A stretch of 64,000 nt of DNA from the NCBI GenBank assembly GCA_038888615.1, contig JAWAID010000001.1, positions 248,001 through 312,000 of the forward strand. Direction: 5' to 3'. Shown piece by piece: positions 47,946 to 53,164 of the stretch (position 1 is the stretch's first letter; the number at the start of each line of letters is the position of its first letter). Position numbers and translations under genes: made by a program. The DNA is from Candidatus Korarchaeum sp. (GTDB taxonomy: Archaea > Korarchaeota > Korarchaeia > Korarchaeales > Korarchaeaceae). A model generated the notes under the pieces. The model was not told the origin of the DNA. It saw only the letters and a program-made list of their open reading frames with translations, and searched no databases.

Positions 47946-48767
47946 GTGAGCATGGTAGTGAGATTCGATGAGGTTAGCTTCAGGTATGAGGGGAGTGAGT
48001 CCTACGCCATCAGGGATGTTAACTTGGAAATTAGGAAGGGTGATTTCGTTCTTATAGCTGGAATGAGCGGCTCCGGGAAGTCTACGCTACTCAGAATGAT
48101 GAACGGGCTCATACCTCACTTCTACAGAGGGGAGATGAGGGGGAGAGTCCTGGTCGATGGTGTCGACACTAGGGAGGCTAGCGTGGCCCAGCTGGCCAGG
48201 AAGGTGGGGATAGTATTCCAGAACCCGGATAATCAGATAGTCACCCTGAGGGTCGATAGGGAGGTGGCCTTCGGCCTCGAGAACCTGGGGGTGGCGAGGG
48301 AGGAGATTGTTGAGAGAGTGAACTACGCCCTTTCCAAGTTAAGGATAGAGCACCTCAGGAACAGATCCACCTATGAGTTGAGCGGTGGTGAGAAGCAGCT
48401 AGTAGCGATAGCTTCCTTAATCGCCATGAAGCCGGAGTTGATAGTTTTAGATGAACCAACTAGTGAGTTGGATCCTTACAGCGCTGCTAGGATAGTTAGG
48501 GTCCTAAGGGAGTTGAACAGGGAGGGAGTTACTATCGTAGTAGCCGAGCATAGGCTCGATCTCTTTGCACCCGCATCCAACAGGTTCTTAGTGATCCATA
48601 ACGGCAGAGTAGTGCTCGAGAGCCAACCGAGGGATGCTCTCTACGGGAGTGACCTTTACCAGTTCGGAGTGAGATCACCAAGTGTGGTGAGACTTGCTAA
48701 GAGCTGGGGAGCTTGTGCAGGAAAGCCTCTAACGGTAGGTGAGCTTCTTAGGACTATGATGGGGTGA
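47946..48767 (+). CDS. ECF transporter ATPase subunit EcfA (first copy)
   Basis: A 273-residue ABC ATPase that energises uptake of a vitamin or metal through an energy-coupling-factor transporter. Walker A is GMSGSGKSTLLRM (about 39-51), the Q-loop is VFQNPDNQIV, the signature is LSGGEKQLVAIA (about 138-149), Walker B is LIVLDEPTSELDP, and the H-loop is VVAEHRL. The C-terminal extension matches the EcfA family. From 48068 to 48229 it is identical in nucleotide sequence to the second ATPase gene. It starts the operon ecfA-ecfA-ecfT; no substrate-binding S component is visible nearby. Confidence 0.9.
   Translation: MSMVVRFDEVSFRYEGSESYAIRDVNLEIRKGDFVLIAGMSGSGKSTLLRMMNGLIPHFYRGEMRGRVLVDGVDTREASVAQLARKVGIVFQNPDNQIVTLRVDREVAFGLENLGVAREEIVERVNYALSKLRIEHLRNRSTYELSGGEKQLVAIASLIAMKPELIVLDEPTSELDPYSAARIVRVLRELNREGVTIVVAEHRLDLFAPASNRFLVIHNGRVVLESQPRDALYGSDLYQFGVRSPSVVRLAKSWGACAGKPLTVGELLRTMMG
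48068..48229 (+). repeat. 162-bp perfect direct repeat, copy 1 (in first EcfA gene)
   Basis: Every base from 48068 to 48229 is identical to 48885-49046, an offset of 817 bp. The repeat spans Walker A through the Q-loop. Outside the block the two genes diverge immediately. Confidence 0.95.
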
Positions 48768-48771
48768 TCCT

Positions 48772-49569
48772 TTGATAGAGATGAGGGAAGTTAGCTTCAG
48801 GTACGAGGGAAGCGATCGTCTTGCGCTTAGGGAGGTATCTACTGAGTTCGCCTTAGGTAGGATATATGGGATAGTGGGGCCTAACGGCTCCGGGAAGTCT
48901 ACGCTACTCAGAATGATGAACGGGCTCATACCTCACTTCTACAGAGGGGAGATGAGGGGGAGAGTCCTGGTCGATGGTGTCGACACTAGGGAGGCTAGCG
49001 TGGCCCAGCTGGCCAGGAAGGTGGGGATAGTATTCCAGAACCCGGAGCACATGTTCTTCTCTGAGACCGTTGAGGAGGAGGTCTCCTTCGGACCTAAATC
49101 CATCGGTATGAATGAGGATGAGGTAATTGAGACCGTTAAGCTGAGTTTAGAGGAGGTAGGGCTTTGGGAACTTAGGAGAAGGAGCCCCTGGTCCTTGAGT
49201 GGTGGGGAGATGAAGAGACTCTCGATAGCATGTATACTAGCGATGAGACCTTCCTTCCTAGCTCTAGATGAGCCTACCGTTGGGCAGGATGCTCTCTCCA
49301 AGGATTCCCTGATTGGAATAATCCGGGGCTTGAGGAGGGAGGGGAGATGCGTGATCGTGGTGACGCATGACTTAGAGTGGTTGAACGACTTGCACCCGGA
49401 TGAGGTCCTACTTCTCAATAAGGGATCTATCTACAGTAGGGGCGCCCCGGAAGATGTTTTCTCCGATCTCAGGAGGCTAGCTATGAGTCAACTGATGCCC
49501 CCAGCCTCCTATTTGGTTGAGCAGTTGTATAGGAGGTGCCTTAATGTTCGACCCATTAGGGATGTTTGA
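48772..49569 (+). CDS. ECF transporter ATPase subunit EcfA (second copy)
   Basis: A 265-residue ABC ATPase paralogous to its neighbour. Walker A is GPNGSGKSTLLRM (about 37-49). The Q-loop reads VFQNPEHMFFSE, the signature is LSGGEMKRLSIA, Walker B is FLALDEPTVGQDA, and the H-loop is VVTHDLEW. EcfA proteins work as a heterodimer, so two different copies are expected, but the 162 bp from 48885 to 49046 are identical in both. It starts 4 bp after the first ATPase gene (a TTG start) and overlaps the ecfT gene. Confidence 0.9.
   Translation: MIEMREVSFRYEGSDRLALREVSTEFALGRIYGIVGPNGSGKSTLLRMMNGLIPHFYRGEMRGRVLVDGVDTREASVAQLARKVGIVFQNPEHMFFSETVEEEVSFGPKSIGMNEDEVIETVKLSLEEVGLWELRRRSPWSLSGGEMKRLSIACILAMRPSFLALDEPTVGQDALSKDSLIGIIRGLRREGRCVIVVTHDLEWLNDLHPDEVLLLNKGSIYSRGAPEDVFSDLRRLAMSQLMPPASYLVEQLYRRCLNVRPIRDV
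48885..49046 (+). repeat. 162-bp perfect direct repeat, copy 2 (in second EcfA gene)
   Basis: This is the second copy of the block at 48068-48229. Complete nucleotide identity, in otherwise diverged paralogues, indicates recent gene conversion or an assembly artefact. Confidence 0.95.
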
Positions 49570-50308
49570 GATATTCAGGACTTACATCGGAGAAACTCCT
49601 TACTCTAGATTGAATCCCATCTCTAAGTTCCTGTTATTCTTAACCTTCCTCATTCTTCCTCTGATCTCCCCGAGTATCTTTCTTCAAATACTCTCGATAG
49701 CCGCTCAAGTACCCTTGATAGTCATCTCTAGATCTGGGAGGAGGGTCCTAAGGTCTCTCAGGGCATCTACTTTCTTCATAATCCTCCTGGTGATATTGAA
49801 CTATGTGACCACGGGCAACGTGATATTCAGTCTCTCCATGGTTATGAGGCTCATAGCTATGATAATCGCTTCAGCCATATTCATGAATGGATCGAGTCCC
49901 TCTGAGGTAGGGGATCTCCTATCAAAACTGAGGGTACCGCCTTCTATATCGTTCTCATTCATAATAGCACTGAGGTTCATCCCCGTTCTAGCAGATGACT
50001 TCATGAACATATTGTCATCGCAAGCGAGTAGGGGGTATGAAGTGGAGAAGGGTGGTCTACTGAGGAAAGCCAAGAGCTTGATACCTATATTGATCCCGTT
50101 GATAGTGATAGCTATTAGAAGAGCCCAGCAACTGGCTGAAGCTTTAGAAAGTAGGTGCTTCGGCTCGGGTTTGAAAAGGACGAGTTACATAGTTTATGGT
50201 GTGGGGGGGAAAGATCTCTTAGCGATTACTTACTGTATCCTCCTATTGGTCATGGGTGCGTACCTATCCACACTCCCCCTGGTAATTCCACTCCTTCAAC
50301 TCCGCTGA
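49544..50308 (+). CDS. ECF transporter transmembrane subunit EcfT
   Basis: A membrane protein of about 254 residues coupling the EcfA ATPases to a substrate-binding subunit. It has about five hydrophobic segments (for example ISKFLLFLTFLILPLISPSIF near the start). Coupling-helix-like motifs ALESRCFGSG and the QLAEALESRC region are typical of EcfT. The ATG at 49544 is preceded by AGGAGGTG at an ideal distance, so I use it over the TTG at 49517. The gene overlaps the second ATPase gene by 26 bp. The substrate is unknown. Its last codons overlap an inverted repeat that forms part of the putative origin. Confidence 0.85.
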   Translation: MFDPLGMFEIFRTYIGETPYSRLNPISKFLLFLTFLILPLISPSIFLQILSIAAQVPLIVISRSGRRVLRSLRASTFFIILLVILNYVTTGNVIFSLSMVMRLIAMIIASAIFMNGSSPSEVGDLLSKLRVPPSISFSFIIALRFIPVLADDFMNILSSQASRGYEVEKGGLLRKAKSLIPILIPLIVIAIRRAQQLAEALESRCFGSGLKRTSYIVYGVGGKDLLAITYCILLLVMGAYLSTLPLVIPLLQLR

Positions 50309-50514
50309 ACCATTGTTGGAGTTGAAGGGGTTCTCCTTCAGCTGGAGGATTTTGGGATTGGATCTGAAGGAGTGGAAAACTAGCGCTCTGGGGGTAACTC
50401 GGAGGTGATGGAGTTGAAGTGTATCACCCACCGCTATCATAAACATAGATAATTTTATGAGGATAATATAATACTCTCATGACCTATTCTTTAAAAGGAC
50501 ATCAAGTTTAAAGG
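50275..50514. other. Candidate replication origin with ORB-like repeats upstream of cdc6
   Basis: Two inverted copies of a G(G/A)-rich box ending in TGAAGGAGTGGAA are each followed by GGGGG. The first is on the minus strand at 50275-50303 (13-bp core 50286-50298) and the second on the plus strand at 50360-50395 (core 50365-50377). The related decamer GGAGTTGAAG occurs at 50294-50303 (minus), 50318-50327 and 50410-50419 (plus). An A/T-rich stretch follows at about 50440-50500. The TGGAA plus G-string layout resembles origin recognition boxes, and the cluster lies directly before orc1/cdc6. No binding has been tested; terminator hairpins of ecfT are an alternative for part of it. Confidence 0.5.
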
Positions 50515-50564
50515 TGGAGTGGATACTAGGGATATTCAGGTCGGGGTGGAGGGGAAGCGATAGA

Positions 50565-51755
50565 ATGCCAATAAATAATAGTGTCTTTTACGATGCCTCC
50601 TACGTAACCTTCTCAATAATAAAGGATAAGCGTGTCCTCAGGGACTCGTTCATACCTGACACACTTCCCGGGAGGGAGGAGCAGATATTCCAATTCACCA
50701 GGGCTCTCTCCGATCTACTTGCCGATCAACCACCTAATGATATAGCGTTCATAGGCAAACCCGGAACCGGAAAGACAGCCGTAGTTAAGAACGTCACTGC
50801 AAAATACAGGCAGGAGTATCCGAACTTAAGGGCTAAATTTGTCTATGTAAACTGCAGCCAGGCCACAACATCATACAGGGTGATGTACCAACTCAACAGG
50901 GCCCTAGGTGTGCTCGTCCCCCCCTCAGGATATCCCTTCGATGTCCTCTGGGACAAGTTCATCGAAGCTTACTCATCATCTAACTCCCGCTTGGTCGTGG
51001 TACTGGATGAGGTCGACTTACTGGTGAGGAGGGACGGGGGGAGGATACTCTACTCACTCTCCAGATTGAACTACGAGCTGAGGAAGGACCTCAGCATAAG
51101 CATGGTGGTGATAAGCAACACGCTTGACTTCTTAGAGAGGTTGGATCCTAGGGAGAGGAGTAGCTTCGAGCCCATCAGGATACACTTCCCTCCATACACC
51201 CAGCCTCAACTTTACAGTATACTGAGGCAGAGGGCTGATCTAGGCCTGAAGTTAGGTACTTGGGACGATGAGGCTCTACACTTCATCGCCTCAAGAGTAG
51301 CTCAGGAATCAGGGGATGCTAGAAGGGCTATAGATGTTTTAAGAATGGCTGCTGAGCTGGTGGAGGATGATAGAGCTGAGAAGTTGACCGTAGAATACGC
51401 TGAGAGAGCTCTAGGTTGTGTTAATGAGGAGGAGATCTCAGTCACGATAAGGACCCTTCCGCTACATCACAGGCTCATAATAGCGGCTATAACGGACATA
51501 CTTGAGAAACCGAACCTGAGGCCGGGTACGGGTGCGATATACATGAGCTACACTAAGAAAGCGTCGAATTACGGTGTTAAGCCCCTCACCATGAGGAGGG
51601 TCTCAGGTATCCTGAGGGAGCTCGAGTCGCTGGGCTTAATAGAGGTGAAGATGGACTACGGGGGGGCTAGGGGGAACACTAAGGTGGTTGAGAGGATGGC
51701 CCTACCCCCCAGGCAGATGAAGTCCCTACTCGGCCAAATGGGTATTAAGGTCTAA
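50565..51755 (+). CDS. cdc6: Orc1/Cdc6 replication initiator
   Basis: An AAA+ protein of about 396 residues. LPGREEQIFQFTRAL opens the ATPase domain. Walker A is GKPGTGKTAVV (about 63-73), Walker B is VVLDEVDLL, sensor 1 is VISNTLDF, and the sensor 2 region is GDARRAIDVLRMAAEL. The C-terminal winged helix (about 300-396) includes TMRRVSGILRELESLGLIE. The start is set at ATG 50565; the frame is open to 50514. It probably binds the ORB-like repeats just upstream, loads MCM, and regulates its own promoter. It converges with DP1. Confidence 0.93.
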   Translation: MPINNSVFYDASYVTFSIIKDKRVLRDSFIPDTLPGREEQIFQFTRALSDLLADQPPNDIAFIGKPGTGKTAVVKNVTAKYRQEYPNLRAKFVYVNCSQATTSYRVMYQLNRALGVLVPPSGYPFDVLWDKFIEAYSSSNSRLVVVLDEVDLLVRRDGGRILYSLSRLNYELRKDLSISMVVISNTLDFLERLDPRERSSFEPIRIHFPPYTQPQLYSILRQRADLGLKLGTWDDEALHFIASRVAQESGDARRAIDVLRMAAELVEDDRAEKLTVEYAERALGCVNEEEISVTIRTLPLHHRLIIAAITDILEKPNLRPGTGAIYMSYTKKASNYGVKPLTMRRVSGILRELESLGLIEVKMDYGGARGNTKVVERMALPPRQMKSLLGQMGIKV

Positions 51756-53164
51756 GAGAAATTCATCACCTCTACGCTCAAATTTTTTAAATCTAAAACG
51801 GGGACCCTTCCAACTGTCACCTCTATTCCCAAGCTCCTTATATAAGGTGTCTCGTTCTCAAATGTGCCTGAGTTGATCAACTTAACCCCCCTATGCTCAC
51901 CTACCCCGTAAACATGGATGTGGCCAGTGTGGAGGACGCTCGGGACCTCCAGCAGGACCAACCAGTCCCTCTCCTCAGGAGAGATGGGGTGTTCCCCGTA
52001 GATAGGCGCTAGGCTCCTGAGCCTGAGCATCCAGGACATGGCCTCAACTACGGTGTTAGGGGTTACCGGTTGTAGGCCTGGGATGTGCTTCATTATGGCG
52101 TTGAGGCTCCTACCATGATATAGCATGATCCTCACACCTCCAATGCTCACCATCGCAGGGTTCGGAAGGTGTATCATATCGGGCTTTGCCTCCCTCAGGA
52201 TCTCCAAGTAGTCCTCAGGGACCTCGGGCTGAGGCTCAGCTTGTCTAACGGGTTCATGATTTCCAGGTACGTATATCAACTTGACGTGATTCGGGACCCT
52301 CGAGAGGATAGCGCCAGCGTACTCAAACTGCTTATAAACATCGGTTATCCTCAATTCCTCCTCCTGATTCGGATAAACACCAATACCATCAACAAGATCT
52401 CCGCATATCACTAAATACCTCACATCCCTAGCTCCCTCGCTTCCGAGCCACCTGATGAACTTCTCGAAAGCCCTTTCATTGAAGTACTTACTTCCGATAT
52501 GCACGTCGCTTACGAGAGCTACCTTACCCTCATGAAACCCGCTCTTCACCTCCTCCTCACTCACCTCAGGAAGTATCAAGCTCTCCGCGAAGATCTTACC
52601 ATTCATGTAAGTGCCCCTGACCGCTATCACGCTATCTACAGGGATTTTATCAGCGATCTCCCAATATCTACTCTCTTTCTTAAATAGAACGCTTATAGAA
52701 CCCGTTTCATCCTCTAGAGTGATCCTGATGGACCTATCTCTCATAGTCGCTTTATCCAGAACCATCCCTATGACGAGTAAGTTGTCCCCGTTCCTAGTAG
52801 CTGAAGCCCTGAGCTCGGCTATGGGTATGGGCTCCAGATCAATCCTCCGGAGGAGCAAAGATCTCAACCCCTCGAACCTGGACCTGATGAATCTCACGAA
52901 CTCATCGGGAGCGCCCGAAACTCCCAGATCAACTGGCCTCAGTAGGACGGACAGGTCGCTCTCGATAACTCCCTTAGGGATGCCCTCCGCTCTCTCGACC
53001 AGGGGCATCAGGTCCCTCAGATCCACGACGACCTTATCTCGCAACAGGTCAAGTAATTCATCTAAATCCTCTCCTTTCAAGCTCAATAGGAAGCTCAAGG
53101 CCTCTGGAGATAGGTTAACTCCCTTCTTAAGTGCCTTTCTCAGCACTTCCAACTCGGCGCTCAT
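51752..53164 (-). CDS. DNA polymerase D small subunit (DP1)
   Basis: A 470-residue exonuclease subunit of archaeal PolD. After a helical N-terminal region comes an OB domain (about 115-205, TLEDETGSISVLF and VIAVRGTYMNGKI). Then comes a calcineurin-like phosphoesterase domain with VALVSDVHIGSKYF, VICGDLVDGIG, YVPGNHEPVR, LYHGRS and a HTGHIHVYGV end, so the metal ligands for proofreading are complete. PolD outside Euryarchaeota is characteristic of several deep lineages including Korarchaeota. It meets cdc6 tail to tail with 4 bp overlap, next to the putative origin. The large subunit is not in this window. Confidence 0.93.
   Translation of the reverse strand: MSAELEVLRKALKKGVNLSPEALSFLLSLKGEDLDELLDLLRDKVVVDLRDLMPLVERAEGIPKGVIESDLSVLLRPVDLGVSGAPDEFVRFIRSRFEGLRSLLLRRIDLEPIPIAELRASATRNGDNLLVIGMVLDKATMRDRSIRITLEDETGSISVLFKKESRYWEIADKIPVDSVIAVRGTYMNGKIFAESLILPEVSEEEVKSGFHEGKVALVSDVHIGSKYFNERAFEKFIRWLGSEGARDVRYLVICGDLVDGIGVYPNQEEELRITDVYKQFEYAGAILSRVPNHVKLIYVPGNHEPVRQAEPQPEVPEDYLEILREAKPDMIHLPNPAMVSIGGVRIMLYHGRSLNAIMKHIPGLQPVTPNTVVEAMSWMLRLRSLAPIYGEHPISPEERDWLVLLEVPSVLHTGHIHVYGVGEHRGVKLINSGTFENETPYIRSLGIEVTVGRVPVLDLKNLSVEVMNFS

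Follow-up and report, generated by a model that had tools for sequence, protein, structure and literature searches.

A candidate chromosomal replication origin with divergent ORB-like boxes upstream of orc1-1 in the genus Korarchaeum

Do the repeats that precede the orc1/cdc6 gene of a heat-loving Korarchaeum-genus archaeon mark its chromosomal replication origin, and, if so, by what rules would the initiator recognize them? No Korarchaeota origin was found described in the open-licence literature searched. The window analysed here is a stretch of 64,000 nucleotides (contig C1, positions 248,001-312,000) from a genome of 1.67 Mb in two contigs. The features discussed below are listed with their coordinates in the window:

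49517-50308, plus strand: ecfT/cbiQ-like transporter gene (PF02361, 2.4e-25), the 3' end of which carries box A
50286-50303, minus strand: box A, GGAGTTGAAGGAGTGGAA, within the last ecfT codons, with a 3' G-run GGGGG (50275-50279)
50318-50327, plus strand: half-box B, GGAGTTGAAG (direct sequence)
50331-50343, minus strand: weak half-box C, AGCTGAAGGAGAA (read from the sequence; D3 repeat at 50333-50343)
50360-50377, plus strand: box D, GGATCTGAAGGAGTGGAA, its G-run GGGGG displaced to 50390-50394
50401-50418, plus strand: box E, GGAGGTGATGGAGTTGAA, without a G-run (sequence, PWM)
50437-50496, no strand: AT-rich stretch, candidate DNA-unwinding element, 78% AT, overlapping the orc1-1 promoter region
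50490-50498, plus strand: TATA-like element TTTAAAAGG, conserved in the genus (sequence comparison)
50565-51755, plus strand: orc1-1, Orc1/Cdc6 initiator (Pfam AAA, Cdc6_lid and Cdc6_C)
51752-53164, minus strand: DP1-like small subunit of DNA polymerase D (PF04042, 9.6e-16, and Metallophos), convergent with orc1-1

Boxes upstream of orc1-1

The first-pass annotation had described TGAAGGAGTGGAA followed by GGGGG, in inverted orientation, and three copies of GGAGTTGAAG. Both sets of elements were found, the former at 50275-50298 (minus strand) and 50365-50394 (plus strand), with gaps of 6 and 12 nt, and the latter at 50294-50303 (minus strand), 50318-50327 (plus strand) and 50410-50419 (plus strand). 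However, comparison of 14 genus upstream regions identified a repeat unit of two 9-mers arranged head to tail, and the true unit is therefore a tandem box of 18-19 bp rather than TGAAGGAGTGGAA alone. Its generalised consensus is GGAGnTGAwGGArTkGAA (18 bp), the 18-19-bp form ending in GAA(A). The array consists of three strong boxes, A (minus strand), D and E (both plus strand), with PWM scores of 28.7 bits (no consensus mismatches), 23.6 bits and 25.9 bits, respectively, and of the weaker half copies B (plus strand) and C (minus strand) between A and D. A weak or half box also occupies the B position in several relatives; half-box C is weakly conserved, though L009 and some other relatives have a better copy.

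Only three sites in the 64-kb window match the consensus with no more than one mismatch, all of them in the array, and each of 100 dinucleotide shuffles of the window yielded no match. The genome-wide motif search that had been proposed as a check returned A, D and E as the only sites with 0-1 mismatches in 1.67 Mb. The locus thus carries a cluster of repeated polar boxes that is unique in the genome, as in oriC1-type origins. The array lies at 298,286-298,418 on contig C1 and at 1,378,642-1,378,771 in a single-contig congener (G010; 1,590,757 bases, orc1-1 at 1,379 kb).

The order, orientation and spacing of A, D and E are kept in all 14 genus genomes with sequence at the locus, with start-to-start distances of about 67-80 bp from A to D and 38-42 bp from D to E. 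Box E is present at all 14 of these loci, although weak in L015. The same three boxes, spaced 79 and 40 bp, were found in a member of another genus of the family (L022), the Orc1-1 of which is 55% identical; elsewhere in the family, loci had one or two boxes that exceeded the shuffled level, and no clear box was present in L021 and L023. A PWM built with the two closest genomes omitted from training ranked the array boxes first to third in the congener, and first, second and fourth in the window genome (1.27 Mb scanned). Exact matches to a relaxed box lay upstream of orc1-1 in 22 of 25 cases, in 16 genus genomes. In the genus, a G-run stands 5 nt after the box in roughly half of all D boxes and in several of the A boxes, and where a G-run is recognizable in relatives it mostly stands at this distance. 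The differing gaps to which attention had been drawn (6 nt for A and 12 nt for D) do occur in the window species, but they are not general: they are restricted to this species and its nearest relative, in which they measure 7 and 14 nt. Between D and E (50377-50401), several relatives (L006-L011 and L015) have a near-palindrome, GGGGAGACTCTCCCC, which is degraded to GGGGGTAACTC in the window species. In oriC1 of Haloarcula hispanica, a G-rich inverted repeat near the ORBs is an enhancer (PMC5333045, PMC4010727).

Box A lies within coding sequence. We compared the ecfT reading frames and C-termini across the genus. The leucine codons CTC CTT inside box A are identical in 13 of 13 genus genomes, and a third leucine codon, over the G-run, is 92% identical, whereas the modal codon accounts for 21-64% at 19 other ecfT leucine columns, away from the origin. 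The constraint on box A therefore acts at the level of the DNA. Upstream of ecfT, two tandem ECF ABC-ATPase genes (47946-48767 and 48772-49569) share 162 bp at 100% DNA identity (48068-48229 and 48885-49046). These identical stretches, embedded in otherwise diverged genes some 1.6 kb from orc1 on its upstream side, point to recent gene conversion. The orc1 contig begins at this repeat in several relatives, possibly because of the duplication.

The A/T-rich stretch reported to follow the boxes was confirmed, and its composition is reached by 0.16% of the 60-nt windows of contig C1. Mean AT content in the genus (30-nt windows) is 67-73% in this stretch, versus about 50-55% over the boxes. The stretch is thus present and conserved, but it is flanked by strong boxes on just one side, and a probable promoter overlaps it. 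Its putative unwinding role is not separable from transcription, because it also holds the probable orc1-1 promoter, of which TTTAAAAGG would be an element. The 5' leader of orc1-1 (50535-50564, ATTCAGGTCSGGGYGGAGGGGAAG) is strongly conserved in the genus, more than a plain ribosome-binding site. A single half-box, GGAGTGGAT, lies at 50516-50524, near the expected orc1 transcription start, in one subclade (L001, L003, L004 and L005, as a variant in some), and is absent from other relatives; it may possibly serve autoregulation of orc1.

The orc1-1 coding sequence probably starts at ATG 50565, behind GGAGGGG. The GTG at 50514 was rejected as a start, because an in-frame TAG separates the two candidates in the closest relative. 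The closest solved chain to the encoded protein is Cdc6-1 of 2qby (E 7e-70), Cdc6-3 of the same structure giving 4e-40. By sequence, the protein is an Orc1-1-type initiator, and the array thus adjoins an Orc1-1-type gene, as in oriC1-type origins. The DP1 gene noted as a neighbour of orc1 was confirmed as DP1-like (PF04042). A second Orc1 gene, considered as an alternative origin marker, has a short intergenic region, and no such box array was seen beside it in the two genomes searched (G000, the window genome, and G010).

Strand-corrected skew at the locus

Skew was calculated from the third positions of four-fold degenerate codons, with control for the coding strand, taking crude longest ORFs as genes, in the congener and on contig C1 of the window genome. 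In the congener, the difference between leading and lagging strands was maximal with the origin placed at 1,380,000, at +0.041 for GC (SE 0.007) and +0.057 for AT. A free two-point fit to GC and AT combined gave 1,380,000 for the origin and an antipodal terminus at 585,000, and a fit to AT alone gave 1,310,000 and 660,000; none of 1000 permutations reached the observed value, for GC or for AT, each considered separately. On contig C1, the change point was estimated at 299,111 (GC+AT), 293,565 (GC alone) or 274,822 (AT alone), and the observed value was reached in 0 of 2000 permutations. Bootstrap intervals were wide: 272-364 kb on contig C1 and, for the combined index in the congener, -79 to +1 kb relative to the locus. 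The pattern is in line with one bidirectional origin, and we infer that this locus is the sole origin.

The strand-corrected skew thus switches at the box locus in two genomes, as in oriC1-type origins, but the raw GC skew does not. Raw GC, AT, RY and keto skews were rejected as origin locators, their extremes tracking gene orientation. A raw GC-skew minimum at the locus, which the first-pass annotation had put forward as a check, was not obtained: in the congener, the minimum of the cumulative curve lies at 762,451 (maximum at 1,579 kb), about 616 kb away, and follows gene orientation.

Competing readings of the array

We consider the stretch to be very probably a chromosomal replication origin of the oriC1 type, because the corrected skew switches here in two genomes, the boxes are unique genome-wide, the layout is conserved, the box-A codons are constrained and the neighbouring gene encodes an Orc1-1-type protein. 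The first four of these observations likewise support the earlier proposal of a candidate origin before cdc6, based on a layout resembling that of archaeal origins. Orc1-1 from the adjacent gene, the presumed reader of the boxes, would bind A, D and E, with the polarity of A opposed to that of D and E. Duplex opening might then occur in the AT-rich stretch 3' of E or in the DNA between A and D; MCM would be loaded after unwinding, and two forks would leave and run to a terminus about opposite.

The boxes might instead be operators for orc1 transcription, bound by Orc1-1 or another regulator, with the origin elsewhere. They do lie upstream of the orc1 promoter, one subclade has a lone half-box, GGAGTGGAT, close to where transcription is expected to begin (50516), and Orc1 homologues can regulate transcription (Sulfolobus Orc1-2, PMC9738581). 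Nevertheless, the boxes extend as far as about 230-280 bp upstream, entering the neighbouring gene and exceeding the range of usual archaeal operators, and this reading conflicts with the switch of the strand-corrected skew at the locus in two genomes; we regard it as unlikely, although a dual role of the boxes, as origin and operator, is possible. Very unlikely, in our judgement, is a main origin near the minimum of raw GC skew and gene orientation in the congener (about 762-775 kb), with the orc1 array minor or dormant. The raw skew minimum at 762,451 is matched there by the optimum for gene co-direction, at 775,000, but this orientation signal does not exceed that of permuted directons (p 0.25), the corrected skew takes the opposite sign when the origin is placed there (-0.021 for GC, -0.037 for AT), and that place has no box cluster.

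The inverted repeats could also be attributed to RNA structure where ecfT ends, either a hairpin or a terminator, their similarity to ORBs being incidental. RNA pairing between A and B around the stop codon is indeed predicted in the window species (-24.8 kcal/mol, z -2.6), but it is lost in most relatives (z -1 to +0.5 in several) even though the boxes are kept. Moreover, box E repeats D in direct orientation, and the motif occurs nowhere else in the genome, unlike a terminator family; neither compensatory A-B pairing across species nor the motif behind many genes was seen. We therefore consider a hairpin to be an extremely improbable explanation, and retain the interpretation of the locus as a candidate origin.

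A precise candidate origin can thus now be offered for Korarchaeota. The divergence of the boxes and the skew results together explain how it would escape detection by published ORB motifs as well as by raw GC skew. As this case shows, four-fold-site skew with control for the coding strand can serve to place an origin on a near-complete archaeal MAG contig.

Comparison with known ORBs and origins

The boxes were compared with the 'common' ORB motif TCCA[CG]T[TG]GAAA[TC][GA]AAGGGGT (Ori-Finder 2, PMC4164010). The right half, ASTKGAAA, is in register, with 57-100% of sites matching per position in A, D and E, and G occupies the G-string positions in 36-93% of A and D boxes. In contrast, the CC of TCCA is matched in 0 of 14 A boxes, 0 of 14 D boxes and at most 1 of 14 E boxes, and the inverted left half is replaced by the head-to-tail 9-mer GGAGnTGAw. 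Of the canonical dyad TCCA-n-TGGAA/TTGAAA, the right half is thus present, but the left TCC is absent in practically all boxes. On this comparison, the boxes are a divergent, lineage-specific ORB variant that retains the right half, in many cases followed 5 nt later by a G-string, and has lost the left TCC.

The best match to the common ORB in the array scored 15/20 and was equalled at three other places in the window, and no ORB site of at least 17/20 was found in the scanned sequence of the two species. Published ORB motifs were consequently rejected as array finders, as they did not single out the array; their sole match in a genus array was box D of G012 (17/20). The scan itself works as a method: in a control set of 76 loci of other archaea and four korarchaeal loci, 72 non-korarchaeal loci offered 600 bp or more of upstream sequence, and 43 of these had a site of at least 16/20 upstream of orc1; none of the korarchaeal loci had one, and the reversed motif gave a site at 1 of 76 loci. 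An alternative register, with the box centre as the ORB G-string (15/20 at 50290), was rejected, its upstream part not being conserved among relatives. The korarchaeal boxes share the TTGAAA core with the ORB/mini-ORB of Methanobacteriaceae (TTWCACTTGAAAT..., PMC4164010), which, like box E, has no G-string, but they lack the TTWCAC half; the best match to this motif in the array was 12/19, and about 410 other places in the window were as good.

Archaeal Orc1 contacts the ORB asymmetrically and as a monomer, through both its ATPase and its winged-helix domains (PMC6742236), and four winged-helix arginines are reported to contact ORBs in initiators (PMC9738581). The recognition helix of korarchaeal Orc1-1, TMRRVS, retains RR. 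The wing reads GARGNT in the window species and GxxGNT in the family, whereas nearly all of the 76 other archaeal Orc1 proteins have GR[YH]GRT or close forms; the wing typical of ORB-binding Orc1-1 is thus missing, and the changed positions would correspond to ORB-contacting arginines. Further wing variants were seen in Orc1 of other classes of the phylum (ARGRTKK, GRGRTKK and EGGGSAF, in L030, L031 and L024), and the initiator wing may therefore vary widely within the phylum.

The loss of the wing signature coincides with that of the left half-dyad in one lineage, a correlation that amounts to one independent event. We tentatively suggest that korarchaeal Orc1-1 may have switched its reading of the origin, basic residues of the wing and the left half-dyad of the DNA having been lost together, such that a head-to-tail pair of 9-mers would now be read; we give this somewhat less than even credence. 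The new initiator recognition envisaged in the first-pass annotation accordingly stands in part: the missing left half-dyad and the changed wing speak for it, but the spacing on which it was based is not a general difference. If such a switch took place, it would constitute a natural change of specificity of initiator and replicator in one lineage, at an unchanged ancestral locus and neighbourhood. This apparent joint change of initiator and replicator makes recognition rules drawn from the few Orc1-DNA crystal structures testable.

At the level of the whole locus, the array differs from oriC1 of Pyrococcus (oriC), Sulfolobus and haloarchaea in the sequence of its boxes, in the location of box A within coding sequence and in the position of the AT-rich stretch, which has the three strong boxes all to the same side of it instead of being enclosed by inverted ones. 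It resembles these origins in that an Orc1-1-type gene is immediately preceded by repeated polar boxes, some of them inverted, with an AT-rich stretch nearby, a skew pattern compatible with one bidirectional origin, and DP1 beside cdc6, a neighbourhood also present in Pyrococcus.
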